Virus record (IMG/VR): IMGVR_UViG_3300006802_010503
Coordinates: 1 to 31,538 of that record
Reading direction: 5' to 3' (one strand)
Length of the DNA stretch: 31,538 nt
DNA from: a virus
Shown: in pieces, positions 1 through 8,268 of the stretch
How positions within the stretch are numbered: the first letter of the stretch is position 1
How the letters are laid out: each line of letters opens with the position of its first letter
The notes under the pieces: generated by a model
Told to the model about the DNA's origin: nothing
Seen by the model: the letters and a program-made list of their open reading frames with translations, nothing else
Database searches by the model: none
Made by a program: the position numbers and the translations under genes

Positions 1-155
1 GGGGTTTGTGTTGCCACCATCAAAAAAACGCTCACGGGTTTGTTGTGCGTCGCCTGCTCGGGGCATGGGGTGCGTGTGCAGGGCATGGGGTGAGCGTGCG
101 TGAGTGCGTGCATGCTTGTATCGCTCCTGATACTTTGCGACGCTTAGAACGCTTC
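1..155. other. Intergenic left edge with direct repeats
   Basis: I see no gene in this 155-base stretch. It holds a 12-base direct repeat, GGGCATGGGGTG at 61-72 and again at 81-92, so the two copies are 20 bases apart. The first copy is part of an 18-base motif (65-82) that matches motifs upstream of queE and of the parB-like gene. A run of seven A at 22-28 would read as a T run in a leftward transcript, but the hairpin before it is weak. The stretch lies after the HNH stop codon, so it probably carries control sites for whatever is transcribed leftward beyond the window edge. Confidence 0.55.
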
Positions 156-165
156 CTATTGCGTC
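139..165. repeat. Imperfect hairpin, inverted copy of the one at 4560-4583
   Basis: The arms GACGC/GCGTC and TAG/CTA flank the 8-base loop AACGCTTC. The 15-mer TAGGAAGCGTTCTAA, read on the minus strand at 144-158, is identical to the plus strand at 4565-4579. The hairpin overlaps the stop codon of the HNH gene. No T run follows on either side, so it does not look like a standard terminator. Confidence 0.5.
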
Positions 166-488
166 TGATTGGCAGTAGGTGGCGTGTATGGCGTGTTGCC
201 GCGTGAACTGTTGCAACTGCGGTGCGCTGGCAGAAGTGGACTGTTGGGGTTTGCTGGCAACAAGTGGTCAGCAGTCCATGGGTCGTCGTTGCGTGCGCCG
301 CCGCCACATATCCAACAATGTGTGGCGTTGTCTCTAACTAACTTTGCGGCTTTGCGGTATGTGGCGTTGTAGTGCGGTCTGTGTTTGCGTTTTGTTTGTG
401 CTGTTTGTCTTTGTGTGGTGCAACGCTGGCATCTTGTGCCTGTGCTTAGTGCGCCGCAGGTTAAGCACGCTCGTGGTGGTTGCGTCAT
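156..488 (-). CDS. HNH endonuclease
   Basis: A 110-residue HNH nuclease. The N-terminus carries a CxxC pair near residues 8-11 and a second at 20-23, like a small zinc ribbon. The HNH core follows: CWIC at 58-61, DH at 74-75, and HRSCN at 89-93, which supplies the third histidine, Cys and Asn. I chose the ATG at 488 because upstream sequence in this frame runs through folE. It is the last gene of the leftward operon. Small HNH proteins of this sort are usually encoded next to the small terminase in HK97-like phages and assist cos cleavage or packaging. Here terS lies at the opposite window end, so the two would be neighbours on a circular map. The role in packaging is inference; the family call is firm. 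Confidence 0.85.
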   Translation of the reverse strand: MTQPPRACLTCGALSTGTRCQRCTTQRQTAQTKRKHRPHYNATYRKAAKLVRDNATHCWICGGGARNDDPWTADHLLPANPNSPLLPAHRSCNSSRGNTPYTPPTANQTQ

Positions 489-511
489 GCAATAAGCCTT
501 ACTAATAAGGG

Positions 512-1057
512 TTAATAGCCTGCGAGACTTAGGAACTCTTGACGCTGTATTGCTTCCGTGCGCAATGTGCCGTGTAGTGCGCTTGTTACCATTTCGCCCT
601 GCTTCTGTATGCCACGACAACTCATGCAACTGTGGTTGCCTCGCATAACAACGCCGCAACCTAATGGCTGTATGTGTTCGTTCATTGCGTCTGCTATTTG
701 TTTTGTTAATCGTTCTTGTACTTGTAGGCGGCGTGCATACGCATCAACAAGTCGTGCAAGTTTGCTTAACCCAACTATGCGGTTTTGTGGCAGATAGCCG
801 AGTGTTGCTGTGCCTGTAAACGGCAACATATGGTGCTCACACAAACTATTGAATGGCACATTGCGTACCACAACGAGTTCGTCGTACTTAACATCAAACG
901 ACACTGCAAGTATCTCGGCAATGTTTGCGCTATAACCGCTTGTCATTTCTTTGAACGCTTTGCATACACGCTTGGGTGTGTTTAGTAATCCGTCTCTACT
1001 TGCGTCCTCGCCAATGTATTCAATCAGTTGTTGTATTGCTGTCAATGGTGCTTCCAT
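512..1057 (-). CDS. folE: GTP cyclohydrolase I, first step of preQ0 synthesis
   Basis: This 181-residue enzyme should turn GTP into dihydroneopterin triphosphate, the entry step for both folate and 7-deazaguanines. The zinc site is visible: CEHH at 73-76 and the second cysteine in the NHSC segment at 141-144, followed by the RG of the active site. Length fits the catalytic core of the bacterial family, which is about 185-220 residues. The start ATG overlaps the queE stop in a TAATG, so translation is coupled. Placement after queC, queD and queE shows that it feeds base modification rather than folate synthesis. A known alternative, a pure folate enzyme, is unlikely in this context. Confidence 0.95.
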   Translation of the reverse strand: MEAPLTAIQQLIEYIGEDASRDGLLNTPKRVCKAFKEMTSGYSANIAEILAVSFDVKYDELVVVRNVPFNSLCEHHMLPFTGTATLGYLPQNRIVGLSKLARLVDAYARRLQVQERLTKQIADAMNEHIQPLGCGVVMRGNHSCMSCRGIQKQGEMVTSALHGTLRTEAIQRQEFLSLAGY

Positions 1058-1824
1058 TACACGCCCCGTTCGTCGTTGTATGCCAGCGTGTGCAAGCGTG
1101 CTGACATGTTGTAGTTGTTAGCCACACACATATCAAACACCCATTGCAAACGGTCTAGCACTTGTTGTTGTGTGCGTCCTTCGGGCATTAGATAGATACT
1201 GCTAGGCGGCAATTGCAGGCGTGCGCACAACCACTTAACTTCTTGCATGCACTGCTCGCTTTGCACAACAAACTTAAACACTGCACCAAGATTTGCATAT
1301 TCTTCTAATGCGTCAATATCTATTGCTTTGTTTACTGCAACACCACTATTGCTTAACTTTGGTGAGCATGTGAACTGCACGCCTAAATCGTTGTACTCGC
1401 TCGAGAGAGCAAGCCATTCTTTGCTATCGGGCATAATGGTGCCGTTTGTTTCTATCTCAACTCTGTGTCCTTGTCTGCGCAACAAATGTACTAGTGCAAG
1501 CATGTTTGTTTGTTGCACCATTGGTTCGCCGCCCGAAATAACAACTGTGCGACATGTTGCTGGCACACAGTCAGCAATCTCTGTTACAAGCATGCGCCGC
1601 AATTCAATTGCTTTGCTGTACGCATAACCGTTCTTACCTGTCCAATCCCATGTGTACGGCGTATCGCACCATTTGCAATCTAGGTTGCACAGTCCAAGTC
1701 GTATGAAGTACGCAGGTTTGCCTGCGCTAATTCCCTCGCCTTGCAGTGTCGGTCCGAAGTGTTCGCTGATTGTTAGTTGCGGCACACTTGTTGTTAATGC
1801 GTAGAAAATTGTTTCTCTGCTCAT
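1057..1824 (-). CDS. queE: 7-carboxy-7-deazaguanine synthase, radical SAM
   Basis: QueE rearranges 6-carboxytetrahydropterin to 7-carboxy-7-deazaguanine using a 4Fe-4S cluster and SAM. The cluster cysteines are C46, C50 and C53 in the CNLDCKWCDT segment, the CxxxCxxC pattern. A GEG motif at 29-31 and an SGGEP motif near residue 120 match the family. Length of 255 is within the usual range. There is no AGGAG before the ATG; the sequence just upstream is pyrimidine-rich (CCTTTT). This contrasts with most genes here. A 67-base gap separates it from queD and holds the conserved 46-base element, so expression may be controlled here. It overlaps folE by TAATG. Confidence 0.95.
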   Translation of the reverse strand: MSRETIFYALTTSVPQLTISEHFGPTLQGEGISAGKPAYFIRLGLCNLDCKWCDTPYTWDWTGKNGYAYSKAIELRRMLVTEIADCVPATCRTVVISGGEPMVQQTNMLALVHLLRRQGHRVEIETNGTIMPDSKEWLALSSEYNDLGVQFTCSPKLSNSGVAVNKAIDIDALEEYANLGAVFKFVVQSEQCMQEVKWLCARLQLPPSSIYLMPEGRTQQQVLDRLQWVFDMCVANNYNMSARLHTLAYNDERGV

Positions 1825-1833
1825 AAAAGGACA

Positions 1834-1888
1834 CGCACAGTTGCGTTCTGTTGCGAGTTAGCGCACGGAATGGGGTAAGTGTGCAGGC
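1834..1888 (-). promoter_or_regulatory. Conserved intergenic element, copy 1 (upstream of queE)
   Basis: Bases 1843-1888 align without gaps to 4571-4616 (36 of 46 identical by eye). Read leftward the order is GCCTGCAC, a CCCCAT block, CTAACTCGCA, then AGAACGC. The 3' part forms a hairpin with arms CGCAACAG and CTGTGCG. The arm bases differ from those in copy 2 while pairing is largely kept. An 8-base inverted repeat GCGAGTTA/TAACTCGC (1853-1860 and 1902-1909) brackets the first half. It could be a phage promoter, an operator or a structured leader RNA. Confidence 0.55.
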
Positions 1889-1891
1889 GTT

Positions 1892-2332
1892 TCAAAGGCT
1901 GTAACTCGCTTTGTTGTTTGCGTGTTCCATGCAAGTAACTTTGCGCAACTTGCATGCAACAAGGTTTTCTACAAGCCATAACGCCACATAGTCGTAAACA
2001 AGTTTCGCAAATGCTTCGCAACCTATTTTGTCTACAACTTCAACACTTGCTAAGCCACTATCCGAAAGCCGCACTAACTCGTCGTACATTGGGTCGTCTG
2101 TTGCAACAAGCAGTGTGTGGTCAAACATATCTTTGAGAAACTCTCGGATATCACTTAACGAGCCAAAGTCAATTACCCAATTGCGTGCGTCTAAAGTTTC
2201 TGCTTCAAACACAATTTCAAAAGCCAATGCGTAGCCGTGTAGGTATTTGCAATGCGAGTTCGCTTTGTGTTGGCGAAACACGCACGACAAACCTAATTCG
2301 TGTCCGAATGTTTTAGTTACTTGATAAGGCAT
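1892..2332 (-). CDS. queD: 6-carboxy-tetrahydropterin synthase
   Basis: QueD converts dihydroneopterin triphosphate to 6-carboxytetrahydropterin, the second step towards preQ0. In the 146-residue protein, H22, the catalytic-type C28 and LHGY at 31-34 form the metal and active-site region; an acidic DFGSL segment and a DHTLL segment follow at about 75-94. The usual LHGH motif is LHGY here, which I associate with a divergent QueD subgroup, so the metal ligand set may differ. The ATG starts one base after the queC stop. The gene is followed by the regulatory gap before queE. Confidence 0.88.
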   Translation of the reverse strand: MPYQVTKTFGHELGLSCVFRQHKANSHCKYLHGYALAFEIVFEAETLDARNWVIDFGSLSDIREFLKDMFDHTLLVATDDPMYDELVRLSDSGLASVEVVDKIGCEAFAKLVYDYVALWLVENLVACKLRKVTCMEHANNKASYSL

Positions 2333-2333
2333 T

Positions 2334-2867
2334 TTATACCGTTCTTTCTATTGCTGTCATTACAGCAATCAACTCGTCTTTACCTCTGTCCCATGTGCCA
2401 TCTTTAATTGCTTTATATTCGTTGTGCAACACGGCACTTCTTGCATCAACAACTAAATGTGCAAAGCCCAACGATGCAAACGCAATCCATTTGCGGCGGC
2501 AAGGTTTGCAAACACCGCACTCAATGTCGTTGTTTGGGTTGTAGCAACTGAAACTTTTGGCAAGTTGCGCAACCCCGGAATCGCCACATTTGTTTTGCAC
2601 TGCCGCAATGATTTGTGTTTTGCTCATGCCTTTCATTGGCATTGTTACTTCTATTGTTTTGCCCTCTGTCCAATGTTGTTGTTGCCACAAGTACGACAAC
2701 AGTGCGCTTGTTTGTGTTGCAAACTCAACGCTCTTGTCCAACACTCTGTCGCCCGCTGTTGCGCCGAGAATTATTTGCTCGCCGTACTGTGCCGCAACTG
2801 CAACGAAAAACAAATTACGCAATGGAATTATGTCGTCCACAACACCAAAAGTATTTAGCACACGCAT
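2334..2867 (-). CDS. queC: 7-cyano-7-deazaguanine synthase, C-terminal part
   Basis: This 177-residue frame is the body of QueC, the ATP-dependent enzyme that turns 7-carboxy-7-deazaguanine into preQ0. It has the LGATAGDR segment near residue 35 and the C-terminal zinc motif, C-x(8)-CGVC-x(2)-C around 108-123, ending CRRKW. It lacks the ATP-binding PP-loop. That part is encoded in the same reading frame directly upstream (2883-3017), separated only by a TAA stop and five further codons. The ATG at 2867 has no recognisable ribosome site. Either the enzyme works as two polypeptides, the stop is read through, or the gene is broken. Joined length is about 227 residues, normal for QueC. Confidence 0.85.
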   Translation of the reverse strand: MRVLNTFGVVDDIIPLRNLFFVAVAAQYGEQIILGATAGDRVLDKSVEFATQTSALLSYLWQQQHWTEGKTIEVTMPMKGMSKTQIIAAVQNKCGDSGVAQLAKSFSCYNPNNDIECGVCKPCRRKWIAFASLGFAHLVVDARSAVLHNEYKAIKDGTWDRGKDELIAVMTAIERTV

Positions 2868-2882
2868 ATCAACAACAATTGT

Positions 2883-3017
2883 TTATTTAGGAAGGCGGCG
2901 CAACTCGGCGTGTGCGTACCGTGTGCCAGCATCAACATACAACAGCACATCTGGTTCGTAAAGCATGCGAGCCGCGTAACTGTCCATGCCGCCACTAAAC
3001 AATAAAACGCTACGCAT
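2883..3017 (-). CDS. queC: QueC N-terminal PP-loop fragment ending at in-frame TAA
   Basis: A 44-residue reading frame that begins MRSVLLFSGGMDSYAA. The SGGMDS at 8-13 is the PP-loop pyrophosphatase motif that binds ATP in QueC. The fragment ends at TAA (2885-2883), and the same frame then continues without another stop into the QueC body. The start ATG overlaps the dpdA stop by eight bases, as expected for a coupled operon gene. Neither half should be active alone. The change from a sense codon to TAA needs only one base, for example from AAA, CAA or GAA. Confidence 0.85.
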   Translation of the reverse strand: MRSVLLFSGGMDSYAARMLYEPDVLLYVDAGTRYAHAELRRLPK

Positions 3018-3891
3018 CACACGCAATTTTCGCTCGTTGCAATTGTGGGTGCAAGTTATTTGTGCGCCAATCTATGCCAACTTGTTTGCCACTTATTAGA
3101 ATTTCACCGTTGCCCAAACTGCTGTACATGATTGGTTGTTTGTTGTTGCGTTGTAAGTGATTTGCAAGTAATGCCGTGCTTAACAAACCTGCTTGGTAGC
3201 CAATTAAGCGTTGTTCTTTCTCTTTGATAATTGCGCCACTTATAAATGCTCGAGCATTCAAACCATAACTCTGGTAAAGGCGTGCATTGTTGCGCCAATC
3301 ATCTTTGTTACCTATTTTGCCGTTAATCATTTGCCTGCGGCTGTAGTCGTAAATCTGCAAACTGCGTATCAAAGTCATGCGACTCACTGCACTACTGTCG
3401 CCACTGTGTGCTTGTGAGACTGCAAACATTTGTGCGCTTGCTTGTCCAAGTGCATGAACTCGTGTATTTGTTTCACGACAAATATCAACAACACGCTTAG
3501 TCGCCGCCTGTTGCAAAGTTTTCGGCACGCCAACCATGCCGCCATAAGCAATGTAATCAAAGTCTCTTGCAATGCGCCGCAACTCTCGTTCGTTGGCTGT
3601 TGCAGTGTAAACAGGCAACACTTTGTGTCCTGCATCTGTGAGCGTGACTAGGTTGCGTGCTGTTGCAATTGTGTTGTGAACTACATCGAGACTCATTGCG
3701 TAGTTGTACACGCCGCGCCAATGTTCTAGAAACGCCATGTAATCAGCCAACTTAATTGGTTTGCCTGTGCTGTGCGCTGTAAATGCGCCACTATCTATCA
3801 TGATATTTGCGTCGTTGCCCACTGCATCTCTCACGGCGGCTAAGTCAATTCGTTTATGAAACGCAAACGAGAACAACAAATCAACTGACAT
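3010..3891 (-). CDS. dpdA: DpdA-type 7-deazaguanine DNA transglycosylase
   Basis: A 293-residue member of the tRNA-guanine transglycosylase superfamily, of the phage DpdA kind. Visible landmarks are the IDSGAF motif at 32-37 with D33, SLDVV at 67-71 with a candidate nucleophile D69, the YGGMVG glycine segment at 116-121 that shapes the base pocket, and VHALGQ at 145-150. It lacks a clear C-terminal zinc site of tRNA Tgt enzymes. The family exchanges guanine in DNA for preQ0 or a derivative. It overlaps the parB-like gene upstream by 11 bases and queC downstream by 8. Together with the preQ0 genes this strongly supports phage DNA modification. Which base is finally present cannot be read from sequence. 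Confidence 0.88.
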   Translation of the reverse strand: MSVDLLFSFAFHKRIDLAAVRDAVGNDANIMIDSGAFTAHSTGKPIKLADYMAFLEHWRGVYNYAMSLDVVHNTIATARNLVTLTDAGHKVLPVYTATANERELRRIARDFDYIAYGGMVGVPKTLQQAATKRVVDICRETNTRVHALGQASAQMFAVSQAHSGDSSAVSRMTLIRSLQIYDYSRRQMINGKIGNKDDWRNNARLYQSYGLNARAFISGAIIKEKEQRLIGYQAGLLSTALLANHLQRNNKQPIMYSSLGNGEILISGKQVGIDWRTNNLHPQLQRAKIACDA

Positions 3892-4468
3892 TCAGCAACA
3901 GTTTCAAACGCTCAACATTATTAGGTGCGTCTATGGCGTGGAACTTTTCTGCAACATCACTAGGCAAGTCAAGCACTATGCGCACTGTTGCTAAGTATTC
4001 GTGCAAGTCGTTAATGGCATTATTTGTAGTGCTTGGTTGAAACGGCTCAGTTTCTAGTAACGCCACTAAATCATCTAAGTCACTCAAGTCGTACAAAGTT
4101 TGTTCAAGTTGTAGTGGCGTTCCTGCTAATTCTTTCAGCACTTCAAGCAAACCTGCATCGTCATAACTTGCAAGGTCGTTAGCACGGTTGTCCGCCAGCA
4201 AAATGCGCAACGCTTCATCATCTGTACAAACGACCATGTTCACTGCAATCTTGTCCCAACCCAAACTGACTGCGGCTTTATATGTGTGGTTGCCTGCCAA
4301 AATAAAACCTGTGCTCGCTTGCACAACGATTGGGCGATACTGACCGTGCGTACTGAGCGACGTGGCAATTGCGCCAACATCACCTTGTCTTACATTGCGT
4401 GGGTGTGGTTGCACGCTGTCAATTGCTTTCGCCATTGAAGCGAGTTCTTGCCGTATGTTGTTTGCCAT
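3881..4468 (-). CDS. ParB/sulfiredoxin-fold protein, possible DpdA partner
   Basis: A 195-residue protein whose residues 16-80 match the ParB/Srx nucleotide-binding fold: PHPRNVR at 21-27, a GQYRPIVV strand at 42-49, and LAGNHTYKAA at 58-66, the GNHT in the place of the usual G-N/E-H-R motif. The C-terminal 90 residues are acidic and unknown. It has an AAGGA site before the ATG and opens the modification operon, overlapping dpdA. In the bacterial dpd system, DpdB also has a ParB-like domain and works with DpdA, so this may be a reduced counterpart; that link is inference. A chromosome or plasmid partition role is unlikely without a ParA. ParB-like nucleases are also scattered through phages. 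Confidence 0.75.
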   Translation of the reverse strand: MANNIRQELASMAKAIDSVQPHPRNVRQGDVGAIATSLSTHGQYRPIVVQASTGFILAGNHTYKAAVSLGWDKIAVNMVVCTDDEALRILLADNRANDLASYDDAGLLEVLKELAGTPLQLEQTLYDLSDLDDLVALLETEPFQPSTTNNAINDLHEYLATVRIVLDLPSDVAEKFHAIDAPNNVERLKLLLNVS

Positions 4469-4559
4469 CGCTGTCCTTATTCGTGTCGTTTGTACTTGTG
4501 CTCACAATATCAAAAGTTGCTTCAATAGTGCGTTATTCGTAAAAACACGCCAATTTAGA
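4469..4559. other. AT-rich leader of the modification operon
   Basis: No gene is visible between the conserved element and the parB-like start. The stretch would be the untranslated leader of the operon. I looked for a promoter and found only weak candidates, such as TTGGCG with CACTAT 17 bases away on the minus strand, which I do not consider convincing. An AAGGA ribosome site precedes the ATG at 4468. Confidence 0.4.
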
Positions 4560-4616
4560 CGCATTAGGAAGCGTTCTAATGCGAGTTAGTGCGCAACATG
4601 GGGCAACAGTGCAGGC
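4560..4616 (-). promoter_or_regulatory. Conserved intergenic element, copy 2 (upstream of parB-like gene)
   Basis: This copy carries the same order of blocks as the one upstream of queE: GCCTGCAC, CCCCAT, CTAACTCGCA, AGAACGC. The hairpin at 4560-4583 is perfect here: arms CGCATTAG and CTAATGCG around an 8-base loop. The arm bases differ from copy 1 but still pair, which favours a structural or palindromic site over chance similarity. No T run follows on the leftward side. The parB-like start lies about 90 bases further downstream. Confidence 0.55.
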
Positions 4617-5471: not shown

Positions 5472-6023
5472 TTATTTTTTTACTGCCAACCAACGAACTT
5501 TGCCGTCCGTCTTTGTTGCGAATATCTGTTTTGCGTCATGCAGTCTGTATAGGCTGTTGTACACCTGTTTTATTGGCATGCCTGTAACAGTTGCAATGTC
5601 GTTTGCACTTGCGTCTTGCAATGCACGCAACGCCGCATGCACAGTTTCAATTCGCTTTGCAACTACTGCGGAAGGCTTGTAAGCCTTCTTGTGCTTTTGC
5701 TTGCGCTTTGTTGTGTTTGCTGTTGGGTGCGCTTGTTGTGCAATTAACTTGTCAAGTTGCGCACCAAGCAATGCAGTGTCATCTGGTACTGTGTTTGTTT
5801 CTTTGCGTGCAAGCACTGCGCTTTCGTTTGCTTCGCAAAATACCAAGTGCAACAAATCTTGTTGCATACCCAGCACCGTTATTTCGTAATTCAGCGTTGG
5901 CAGTATTGCGTCCAAAGCCGTGTAATTGCCTGCGCTTCCATAGTCGGGAATTGCGACGGTCAGCGTCACCTTCCAAACATTGTTGTCCAATGGTGTTACC
6001 ACCATTTGCTGTTGCTTTGCCAT
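5472..6023 (-). CDS. Winged-helix protein of unknown role
   Basis: A 183-residue protein with two parts. Residues 1-75 are unrecognised and rich in beta strands (KVTLTVAIPDYG). A basic linker with TKRKQKHKKAYK at about 105-118 leads to a C-terminal winged-helix domain at about 125-183: an alpha-helical VHAALRAL, then DIATVTGMPIKQVYNSLYRL as turn and recognition helix, then a two-stranded wing ending VRWLAVKK. The start at 6023 follows an AGGAGACAAAC ribosome site. A DNA-binding regulator is the simplest reading. It lies downstream of the amidotransferase gene after a 91-base gap with a two-stem hairpin. Confidence 0.65.
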   Translation of the reverse strand: MAKQQQMVVTPLDNNVWKVTLTVAIPDYGSAGNYTALDAILPTLNYEITVLGMQQDLLHLVFCEANESAVLARKETNTVPDDTALLGAQLDKLIAQQAHPTANTTKRKQKHKKAYKPSAVVAKRIETVHAALRALQDASANDIATVTGMPIKQVYNSLYRLHDAKQIFATKTDGKVRWLAVKK

Positions 6024-6061
6024 GTTGTTTGTCTCCTGTCTGTTGTTGTTGTTTATGGCGT

Positions 6062-6106
6062 GCCACGCTCGGGTCGTGAACCCGTGTTGCCTGCGCAATG
6101 CGTGGC
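6062..6106 (-). other. Two-stem structured intergenic RNA
   Basis: A 7-base-pair stem GCCACGC/GCGTGGC (6062-6068 and 6100-6106) encloses a second 5-base-pair stem CGGGT/ACCCG (6070-6074 and 6080-6084). The inner loop on the minus strand carries GGTTCACGA, which looks like a tRNA T-arm. Only 15 bases lie between the outer and inner stems on the 5' side, so D and anticodon arms are missing. No T run follows. Function unknown. Confidence 0.5.
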
Positions 6107-6114
6107 TATTGCTG

Positions 6115-7035
6115 TTACCAGCGTTCTCCGTATTTGCCCATGCGGAATTGTCTGTCTAACGCATCTCGCAAATTGTTGTATTCGTCTTGTTCTGCTTCGT
6201 AGTCAAAGTCGTCTGTTGTTAGCAACAAATCGTCGTCGTCCCACAATGCGTCTAGTTGTGCTTGTGCAATGCTTCGCTGTTGCGCAAACTTGCTGGGCTT
6301 GTTGTAATTGTGCGTAGGCACATATACAGGCGCAACCACTTTTACTTGCGTCATGTGTTTAATGTTGCAGTCTTGCGCCATAATGTGCTCGCCCTGCTTC
6401 ATTTCGTATATGTACTCAAAAACAAGTTTGCATCGCTTCGCTGTTTCTTTCAGTATTGCTTCCGTGCTTGCGAACACAATGCTTCCTTTCTTTGTTTGCC
6501 CAAACCACAACGGGCTACTTGTTAGCCGCACTGCATACAAGCGTTGTTGCTTGTCGTAACTACGCAACCACAAAAGTGCCGCATTGCCACGCACTTCTGC
6601 AAGTCTGTCCACAAGTGCAGTTTCTTTCTTGCCGTGCGCCATGTAAGCAAACACTGCTTCGCTGTCCACTTGTGCTTGTCGCTTGTAGTCCACACACTTT
6701 GCAAGCAACTCGTTGTCGTTTGCAATGTGTCCGTTGTGTACACCAACAATTCCACCAACATCTATCGGGTGATTGTTGTCGTTGTTGCTGGGCTTGCCTT
6801 GCGTTGCCCATCGTGTATGCACAATGCCTGTTGTGCCAATTGTTTTGTCAAGGCTTCGTGCAAGTGCTTTGCCTGCCAATGCGCCTTTACGCACAAATGT
6901 TTGTCCTTTATCGTCGTGCCATGCAACGCCACTTGCATCTTTGCCACGCACTTCTAACAAGCGCAAAAGCACTCGTGCAACCATTGCTGGGTCACACTCG
7001 CCTTCTGCAATTTGGAATGCTCCTATACCACACAT
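6115..7035 (-). CDS. Class II glutamine amidotransferase
   Basis: A 306-residue glutaminase of the Ntn type. It begins MCGIGAF, so C2 becomes the N-terminal nucleophile after Met removal. RWATQG at 75-80 and the VGVHNGHI segment at 98-104 are the glutamine-binding motifs. These domains release ammonia from glutamine for a partner. Residues beyond about 190 have no synthetase domain that I recognise; the last 60 are acidic. The ribosome site AAGGAG precedes the ATG. It sits directly after the amidoligase gene, and near a preQ0 operon. Ammonia could go to the amidoligase product or, as in archaeosine-type DNA bases, to preQ0. A phage peptide-modifying role is a third option. Confidence 0.88.
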   Translation of the reverse strand: MCGIGAFQIAEGECDPAMVARVLLRLLEVRGKDASGVAWHDDKGQTFVRKGALAGKALARSLDKTIGTTGIVHTRWATQGKPSNNDNNHPIDVGGIVGVHNGHIANDNELLAKCVDYKRQAQVDSEAVFAYMAHGKKETALVDRLAEVRGNAALLWLRSYDKQQRLYAVRLTSSPLWFGQTKKGSIVFASTEAILKETAKRCKLVFEYIYEMKQGEHIMAQDCNIKHMTQVKVVAPVYVPTHNYNKPSKFAQQRSIAQAQLDALWDDDDLLLTTDDFDYEAEQDEYNNLRDALDRQFRMGKYGERW

Positions 7036-7062
7036 GTTCTGTCTCCTTTGTTGTTGTTGTTG

Positions 7063-8190
7063 TTACGAATTACGGCTTCGGACTGGAATGTTGCCTGCAC
7101 GCTGTGTCATGTATGCACACACATCAGCGTCTAGTGCTGTACCTGTTTGCAACGCTCCTAAGCGTGTTACTAATTCACGACCAGCAATTACACCTTCAAG
7201 TCTTGTAGGTGCGTTGTAAATACCATTTACAACTGTTCGCTTGTACTCTGCGCCAACAGGCAAGTTGTCGCATAACGCCATAAATGTTGTTTCATGTTTG
7301 CAAGCGTCAATAAATGCCAAGTGCATTGCAATCCATGCTGTTGCATTTTGCCCGTTAAGCGAACCATGATGACTACGAAATTCAAATGTGCCGTGTCTGT
7401 GATAACTTGCAACATTCAATGCGTAGTACCTGTCCATACTGCTTGCAAAGTTACGCCTGTCATTTGTTGTTTCCCAACTTGTTGCAAGGCGTGCGTTTGT
7501 GTCAGCACTGCGCAACGCAGACCAACGGCTGTTCACTCGTCGTTCAAGTATCCATGCCGTCATTGCCCACTGCCACGCACCGTAAGCCTTAATTATTCTT
7601 GTCTGGTGTTCCCTAGCAAGTTGGTCAACGCCAATGTGTATGTGCATGCCACACGACTCGTTAATGCGTGCGCCTGCATCTCGCAACACTTTCATTACTG
7701 TGCGCTCTTCTGTTAGTCCGTCACTGCCACTAAGCACAGGCGAAACAACTTCGCATGCACCATTGCGACTGTGCAAACTTGCGTCAGTAACAACTTTCCA
7801 TGTTGGGCGTGTGTTGTGATTGTATCCATTGTTCTCGCAAGTAATGCCAGCGTCACGCAACGCTCGTGCCGCATCACTTGTTGTCAAGCCCACACATTCA
7901 ATTTCAATTCCAAATGTCAGTGTGCTGTTTGTTTGCCATGCTGTCTGTTCATCAACAACAAGTGTTGTCGTGCGTCCGTTGTGTTGCACTGTAACTCTGC
8001 GTGGCGTGCTGACTGGAATTTCTGCATGTCGTCCACTGTGTCGCAAACCACTAATCCACATGAAGCGTGAAGTGCGTGGGTCTGCGAAACCCATAATGTT
8101 TGCAATCTCACGGAATGTTCTTCCTTGGTCATGCAATTCAAGAACTCGCAAATACTGTGCGAGTCTTTCTTGTGTTACTTGTCTTGGCAT
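7063..8190 (-). CDS. Putative amidoligase with N-terminal HTH-like segment
   Basis: A 375-residue protein of the amidoligase family related to glutamine synthetase, which forms amide bonds between a carboxylate and an amine using ATP. Evidence is FGIEIEC at about 93-99 with paired glutamates, MHIHIG at 182-187, and a late FEFRSHHGSLN segment. Residues 1-50 look like a helix-turn-helix (EIANIMGFADPRTSRF) ahead of the catalytic domain. Start at 8190 is set by AAGGAG seven bases upstream. It is followed at 28 bases by the amidotransferase, a pairing known in phages and bacteria. Its substrate may be a peptide, a cell-wall group or the modified base; sequence does not decide. Confidence 0.8.
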   Translation of the reverse strand: MPRQVTQERLAQYLRVLELHDQGRTFREIANIMGFADPRTSRFMWISGLRHSGRHAEIPVSTPRRVTVQHNGRTTTLVVDEQTAWQTNSTLTFGIEIECVGLTTSDAARALRDAGITCENNGYNHNTRPTWKVVTDASLHSRNGACEVVSPVLSGSDGLTEERTVMKVLRDAGARINESCGMHIHIGVDQLAREHQTRIIKAYGAWQWAMTAWILERRVNSRWSALRSADTNARLATSWETTNDRRNFASSMDRYYALNVASYHRHGTFEFRSHHGSLNGQNATAWIAMHLAFIDACKHETTFMALCDNLPVGAEYKRTVVNGIYNAPTRLEGVIAGRELVTRLGALQTGTALDADVCAYMTQRAGNIPVRSRNS

Positions 8191-8210
8191 TTTCTGTCTC
8201 CTTGTTTTCG

Positions 8211-8268
8211 CAAGTGGCGTTTCCACTTGTCTATAAGCAATGCTAGTGCCAGCAACAGCGCATATCAA
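8211..8268 (-). promoter_or_regulatory. Candidate promoter and hairpin before the amidoligase gene
   Basis: On the minus strand TTGATA (8268-8263) and TAGCAT (8245-8240) are 17 bases apart, close to the sigma-70 type consensus. Downstream, CAAGTGG and CCACTTG (8211-8229) form a perfect 7-base-pair hairpin with a 5-base loop, before the AAGGAG site. The 112-base gap between the upstream small gene and the amidoligase makes a promoter plausible; it is not proven. Confidence 0.4.

Follow-up and report, generated by a model that had tools for sequence, protein, structure and literature searches.

A probable ParB-led 7-deazaguanine DNA modification cassette in an IMG/VR virus and the exchange of enzymes behind the ParB-like gene in its relatives

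The minimal set of FolE, QueD, QueE, QueC and DpdA gives dPreQ0 and was linked by Hutinet et al. to Rosebush and CAjan (PMC6884629). Many mycobacteriophage records have a ParB-like gene directly before dpdA, and the CRB2 paper of 2019 proposed this ParB, ORF1, as a possible homolog of the bacterial protein DpdB (PMC6392294). ParBc proteins often neighbour (CmoX) or are fused to phage DNA-modifying enzymes and methyltransferases, and their role was called unknown in a 2025 paper (PMC12783734). The window analysed here is the whole 31,538-nucleotide stretch of the IMG/VR virus record IMGVR_UViG_3300006802_010503. Its minus strand carries, in this order, a ParB-like gene, dpdA, queC, queD, queE and folE, followed by an HNH-type open reading frame (ORF). 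We hold it moderately probable that this is a 7-deazaguanine cassette led by a ParB adaptor distinct from DpdB, in which the enzyme behind the ParB is exchangeable and the place is here taken by a 7-deazaguanine module. The ParB–dpdA pairing of the original prediction is not new: actinophages were known to carry this operon, and the DpdB idea was already in print. The operon itself is of a class familiar from phages; the useful part is the pattern of partner exchange around the ParB.

The minus strand carries all six genes of the run described in the original prediction, in the order given there and each with a family match (Table 1). The operon was then drawn from 156 to 4468; the six genes fill 515–4468, and 156–488 is the separate HNH-like ORF. 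Start and stop codons, thought to overlap mostly, do so in the pairs ParB/dpdA, dpdA/queC and queE/folE, whereas queC and queD lie 1 nucleotide apart, and a gap of 67 nucleotides between queD and queE holds a repeated element. All four steps of preQ0 synthesis are represented in gene content by the FolE, QueD, QueE and QueC families, but not in intact frames, queC being interrupted by a TAA.

The DpdA residues D33, D69, H146 and D165 are kept and are invariant with those of the DpdA of phage 9g and of actinophages, and the DpdA profile matches 7ui4, a solved DNA-guanine transglycosylase. The DpdA2 subfamily (Hutinet 2019), characterized by the lack of a histidine at 9g position 196 (PMC6884629), was ruled out, as H146 aligns with the H of the 9g motif VHGFG, residue 196. 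With the catalytic residues of DpdA and the four precursor families, the locus has the components of a phage DpdA-dependent 7-deazaguanine system, apart from the interrupted frame of queC. On the basis of these established families, the most likely function of the cassette is to introduce a 7-deazaguanine into the DNA of the phage. FolE, QueD and QueE would produce 7-carboxy-7-deazaguanine (CDG), QueC would convert CDG to preQ0, and DpdA would put the product in place of guanines of the phage DNA. Depending on queC, the modified base would be dPreQ0 if QueC works and dCDG if it does not, or there would be none.

A single in-frame TAA (2885–2883) splits queC into a 44-residue start with the P-loop and a remainder with the zinc motif, and the motifs SGGxDS and Cx8CxxCxxC are both present, one on each side of the stop. 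The homologs of L008, L009 and L010 (the loci compared are numbered with L) are intact and align straight through the stop site, and the sequence flanking the stop is conserved on both sides. A frameshift was ruled out because both halves share one frame, and general recoding of TAA because this codon is the stop of folE and of other genes, and the other large ORFs of the window are uninterrupted. Among about 70 related loci, an in-frame stop was found also in dpdA of L055 (8206–9045) and a frameshift in queE of L020 (7002–7549), so that such records do contain interruptions. The stop may be either a sequence error or a real mutation. The window QueC belongs to a non-canonical phage subfamily (the type of L011, L012 and L008; 43–48% identity), whereas the syntenic relatives have a canonical QueC. 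In the window QueC, the YPDC motif is replaced by GDRVLDKS, and the canonical single open frame is broken by the TAA.

The linkage of ParB to DpdA was evaluated from DpdA rows that came mostly from loci fetched via QueC, not via ParB. A ParB was located within 400 bases of dpdA in 26 of the 50 rows, and this adjacency follows the DpdA tree, with 5 changes in comparison to a shuffled mean of 16.7. The order is reversed, with ParB after dpdA, in L040 and L068. A separate search with close relatives of the ParB-like protein produced 80 loci, and a set of 56 proteins was scanned, each being either the directly downstream gene or the ParB ORF itself if fused to a longer C-terminal part. The partners included 13 Tet_JBP proteins, 10 N6_N4 methylases (all fused), 8 DpdA, 6 TET-associated glycosyltransferases (TAGT), 3 C5 methylases and 2 Mom proteins, and among the remaining ones were Asn-synthase-type and PAPS-reductase-type PP-loop proteins as well as GNAT proteins. 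An article by Iyer et al. (2013, NAR) may, reportedly, mention ParB domains in phage Tet/JBP operons.

When only separate genes were counted, recognised DNA-modifying enzymes made up 32 of the 46 genes downstream of ParB, but only about 8 of the 48 genes upstream of it (Fisher p 3e-7, a rough value as the loci are related). On the ParB tree, partner type switches no fewer than 29 times, the minimum possible being 8 and the shuffled mean 37, with many branches weakly supported. The cassette lies regularly 0.8–4.4 kb upstream of terL, and phages with a TerL 58–77% identical to that of the window have differing enzymes between ParB and terL. In the Sourvirus pair, ParB is followed by dpdA and que genes in Sour and by a GNAT and a formyltransferase-like protein in Mariokart, and in Arthrobacter phage Wyborn by Mom. 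The start and stop codons of ParB overlap those of the partner gene in most of the non-fused loci.

The match to PF02195 lies above the gathering score and, together with the predicted fold, places the protein in the ParB/Srx N-domain superfamily. In Foldseek, its AlphaFold2 model (mean predicted local distance difference test, pLDDT, 71) matched Noc 7nfu (E 9e-8) and structures of ParB with cytidine triphosphate (CTP) or cytidine diphosphate, and more weakly sulfiredoxin. The ParB-like protein would keep a fixed place at the head of a cassette that lies upstream of the terminase and in which the modifying enzyme is interchangeable between phages. It would bind DNA via the ParB/Srx fold, perhaps in a nucleotide-dependent manner, and so bring the modifying enzyme to phage DNA or hold it there, a biochemical role that we infer from linkage, fusion and exchange. 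The wider proposal, that the small phage ParB is a general targeting factor serving unrelated chemistries (guanine transglycosylase, Tet/JBP dioxygenase, glycosyltransferase, methylases and Mom), is put forward tentatively. Several points weigh against an adaptor of this kind. The loci share recent ancestry, so the partner counts are not independent. Some phages with DpdA, such as 9g, do without ParB, which shows that it is dispensable in certain systems. In the window protein, GNHT (GNHTYKA) stands in place of GERR (GERRWRA), the nucleotide motif of ParB and Noc, which makes the use of CTP or adenosine triphosphate doubtful. The stop in queC may mean that the pathway stops short of preQ0, and no biochemical data on such phage ParB proteins were found.

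The original prediction saw in the ParB-like gene and dpdA a reduced DpdA–DpdB pair. The partnership is supported by the linkage described above; the identity with DpdB does not hold at the level of the family. Bacterial DpdB, taken from plasmids and genomes of Enterobacterales and other bacteria, is a 375-amino-acid DGQHR protein, and the phage ParB is half as long and lacks the DGQHR motif. The profile check suggested with that prediction was negative, as neither the DpdB profile nor that of the phage ParB had a match in the loci of the other, and PADLOC found no DpdB match at E<=1. Profile–profile alignment (hhalign) gave a probability of 2% over 54 columns. The predicted model of DpdB (pLDDT 63, and under 50 over much of the N-terminal half) had no significant match in the PDB and was too poor for comparison with the phage ParB. 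The gene does adjoin dpdA as in the bacterial island, the authors of the CRB2 paper made the same proposal, and the sole profile–profile overlap pairs the motif AGNHTYKAA with DGQQRTAAL, fitting a shared ParB/Srx superfamily. Nevertheless, enzymes unrelated to DpdA follow the same ParB family, and it is quite improbable that the gene is the phage form of DpdB. Membership of the phage ParB in the DpdB family is not supported, and a distant common superfamily is possible. As its closest relatives precede unrelated enzymes or are fused to methylases, the ParB-like protein appears to be a general partner and not a reduced DpdB.

Two further explanations concern the ParB-like protein itself. It might be a nuclease against unmodified host or rival DNA, the partner protecting the phage DNA, so that the two form a phage restriction-modification pair. 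Some ParB/Srx proteins nick DNA (PMC12839542), a nuclease that is blocked by any modification could well be paired with many different protective chemistries, and phage annotations speak of a 'ParB-like nuclease domain'. However, no nuclease motif was seen, although no dedicated test was made, the protein consists of just 195 amino acids with the ParB N-domain and a short helical tail, and the ParBc neighbour was treated as DNA-binding and of unknown function in PMC12783734; we regard the nuclease as unlikely. Of similarly low probability is hitch-hiking, in which ParB would have no role in modification and would simply mark a locus prone to recombination ahead of the terminase. The position relative to terL could alone preserve the linkage, but the fusions to N6/N4 methylases in 10 loci and the overlapping codons in most of the others argue against it, as does the adjacency of ParB and dpdA in unrelated phages and, reversed, in L040 and L068.

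Other alternatives concern the chemistry. The function of queC may have been lost by the nonsense codon, in which case DpdA would insert CDG (dCDG) or the system would be decaying; this is a serious possibility, short of being the expected one, and it is compatible with an exchangeable ParB-led cassette. The TAA stands in frame after the P-loop, queC is absent from the related cassettes of L100–L103, L167 and Hilltopfarm (L003), and Hutinet et al. considered CDG for Bipper, which is without queC. On the other hand, conservation is kept on both sides of the stop, a one-base error in metagenome assembly would give an identical picture, and a split or read-through QueC is possible. The interrupted queC and the relatives without queC point to a step between dPreQ0 and dCDG modification. 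Production of dG+ (archaeosine) by a separate class II glutamine amidotransferase (Gat) acting together with QueC, like the fused Gat-QueC of phage 9g, was also considered. The window encodes such a Gat, and its QueC resembles the QueC domain of the 9g type of Gat-QueC (31% identity). The window QueC has no N-terminal Gat, though, and the match to the Gat-QueC profile is weak (phrog_10428 5e-6). The separate Gat adjoins an amidoligase outside the modification operon, and in several related phages this pair is likewise conserved upstream of the ParB-led cassette. The same pair is present in relatives with a canonical QueC (L098, L121) and in loci that yielded no que genes (Ottawa L095, L141, L119, L124). 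A split Gat-QueC was on this last ground rejected as the principal explanation, and dG+ is very improbable.

Under an exchangeable ParB-led cassette, which we prefer, the ParB gene stays fixed and the following enzyme varies among close phages, and the role of the ParB domain thereby becomes directly testable. The pattern also gives a rule for finding new base-modifying enzymes, namely to inspect the slot after this ParB. If the ParB were a general targeting factor, phages would alter their DNA chemistry by swapping only the downstream enzyme, and the unannotated genes of the slot (Asn-synthase-like and PAPS-reductase-like PP-loop proteins, GNAT/ABC proteins and a family of 392–412 amino acids) would be new DNA-modifying enzymes.

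Candidate DNA-modifying enzymes among the PP-loop proteins in the slot are the Asn-synthase-like proteins of L147 (5477–6286), L148 (2271–3107) and L156 (5444–6301) and the PAPS-reductase/DUF3440 proteins of L119 (5621–6829) and L134 (1245–2480). GNAT proteins with a weak ABC-type match follow ParB in L097 (609–2446), L107 (603–1718) and L177 (676–1887), and Mariokart adds the formyltransferase-like gene; these proteins may stand for a new base modification.

The genes of the window cassette are of mixed ancestry. ParB, QueE, FolE, the amidotransferase and the amidoligase resemble those of L098 and L121 (55–76%), and DpdA is closest to that of L100–L103 (43%). The interval between dpdA and queD includes in the relatives a canonical queC, a QueC of the window type, a methyltransferase-like ORF without queC (L100), an unidentified ORF (L167) or an extra DpdA (L121). 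The dpdA–queC–queD part of the window phage appears to have been exchanged by recombination. The window has exactly three copies of the element CCTGCACN5CCCCAT, which lie at the edges of the cassette and in the queD–queE gap, and a 23-nucleotide inverted repeat (96%) brackets the cassette. A search of seven relatives for inverted repeats of this kind gave none. The repeats of the window may be regulatory elements or recombination borders.

The methyltransferase-like ORF of L100 (6396–6974; PF13489, 2e-5) stands in the position of queC and could methylate a carboxy-deazaguanine. L121 has two dpdA genes with a short unidentified ORF between them in one operon (5503–7901), and two adjacent dpdA genes are present also in Microbacterium phage Megan (L006). 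In L010 (4473–6671), an intein-like insertion lies within the catalytic DSS/TTW site of a DpdA ORF of 732 amino acids, and the DpdA ORF of L072 (6686–8881) is of similar length.

Table 1. Positions of the cassette genes, repeats and neighbouring genes in the window.
Feature	Positions	Strand	Matches and remarks
ParB-like (ParB/Srx N-domain) protein, 195 amino acids, first cassette gene	3884..4468	-	PF02195 (ParB_N) 4.1e-6; phrog_8071 1.2e-37
dpdA, DNA-guanine transglycosylase, 293 amino acids	3013..3891	-	phrog_887 'queuine tRNA-ribosyltransferase' 6.6e-27; profile to 7ui4 E 2.8e-4
queC N-terminal fragment, 44 codons, SGGMDS P-loop	2886..3017	-	aligned to intact homologs L008, L009, L010
queC C-terminal part, same frame, ATG at 2867, zinc motif Cx8CxxCxxC intact	2337..2867	-	PF06508 7.2e-14, profile 91-208
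queD (6-carboxytetrahydropterin synthase)	1895..2332	-	PF01242 (PTPS) 1.4e-16; phrog_2389 1.3e-38
queE (7-carboxy-7-deazaguanine synthase)	1060..1824	-	TIGR03365 8.5e-30; phrog_2076 7.7e-60
folE (GTP cyclohydrolase I)	515..1057	-	PF01227 4e-66
HNH-endonuclease-like ORF closing the cassette	156..488	-	phrog_338 1.5e-6, ORF read from TTG 659
Repeat copy 1 upstream of ParB: CCTGCACN5CCCCAT box, GCACTAACTCGCATTAGAACGC, one arm of the 23-nucleotide inverted repeat	4557..4615	-	
Repeat copy 2, queD–queE gap	1843..1887	-	
Third CCTGCACN5CCCCAT box (65-82) and second arm of the 23-nucleotide inverted repeat (144-166), 96% complementary to 4557-4579	65..166	-	
Class II glutamine amidotransferase (Gat), paired with the amidoligase, outside the modification operon	6118..7035	-	PF13522 8e-16; phrog_14519 4.3e-37
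Amidoligase, neighbour	7066..8268	-	PF12224 2.3e-34

Among the known systems, the operon of actinophages (mycobacteriophage CRB2, Gordonia phage Sour and Arthrobacter phage Sonali) has the same gene order and the same ParB/dpdA overlap, and in CRB2 and Sour it adjoins the terminase genes. Funsized has the same ParB-first order with one extra gene, and Hilltopfarm a version without queC, which is also ParB-first. The shared order thus extends over phages whose hosts are distant from one another. In comparison to these operons, the window proteins are mostly less than 50% identical, QueC belongs to another subfamily and is interrupted, and an HNH ORF stands at the end. The gut phage MT835752 (L008) and the IMG/VR loci L015–L021 and L047 share the order ParB–dpdA–queC–queD–queE–folE and the QueC subfamily (43–46%), but in relatives of the MT835752 type queC is intact, and their ParB and DpdA are only 28% and about 20% identical to those of the window. 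The IMG/VR loci L098, L099, L104 and L121 share the synteny amidoligase–Gat–ParB–dpdA–queC–queD–queE–folE, with identities of 55–67% for ParB, up to 64% for QueE and up to 76% for FolE; they differ by a canonical QueC with YPDC, another DpdA lineage and, in L121, the second DpdA.

The bacterial dpd island likewise has a TGT-like DpdA beside a protein suspected to belong to the ParB superfamily, but that protein is the 375-residue DpdB, which has no profile match to the phage ParB. Enterobacteria phage 9g has the same D and H residues in DpdA and a related QueC domain, but its dpdA has no ParB beside it, its QueC is fused to Gat and its gene order is another. In the ParB-domain DNA methyltransferases and the ParBc neighbours of CmoX, the same ParB_N domain is fused or adjacent to a base-modifying enzyme (PMC12783734); unlike in these, the partner in the window is a guanine transglycosylase with a precursor pathway of its own.

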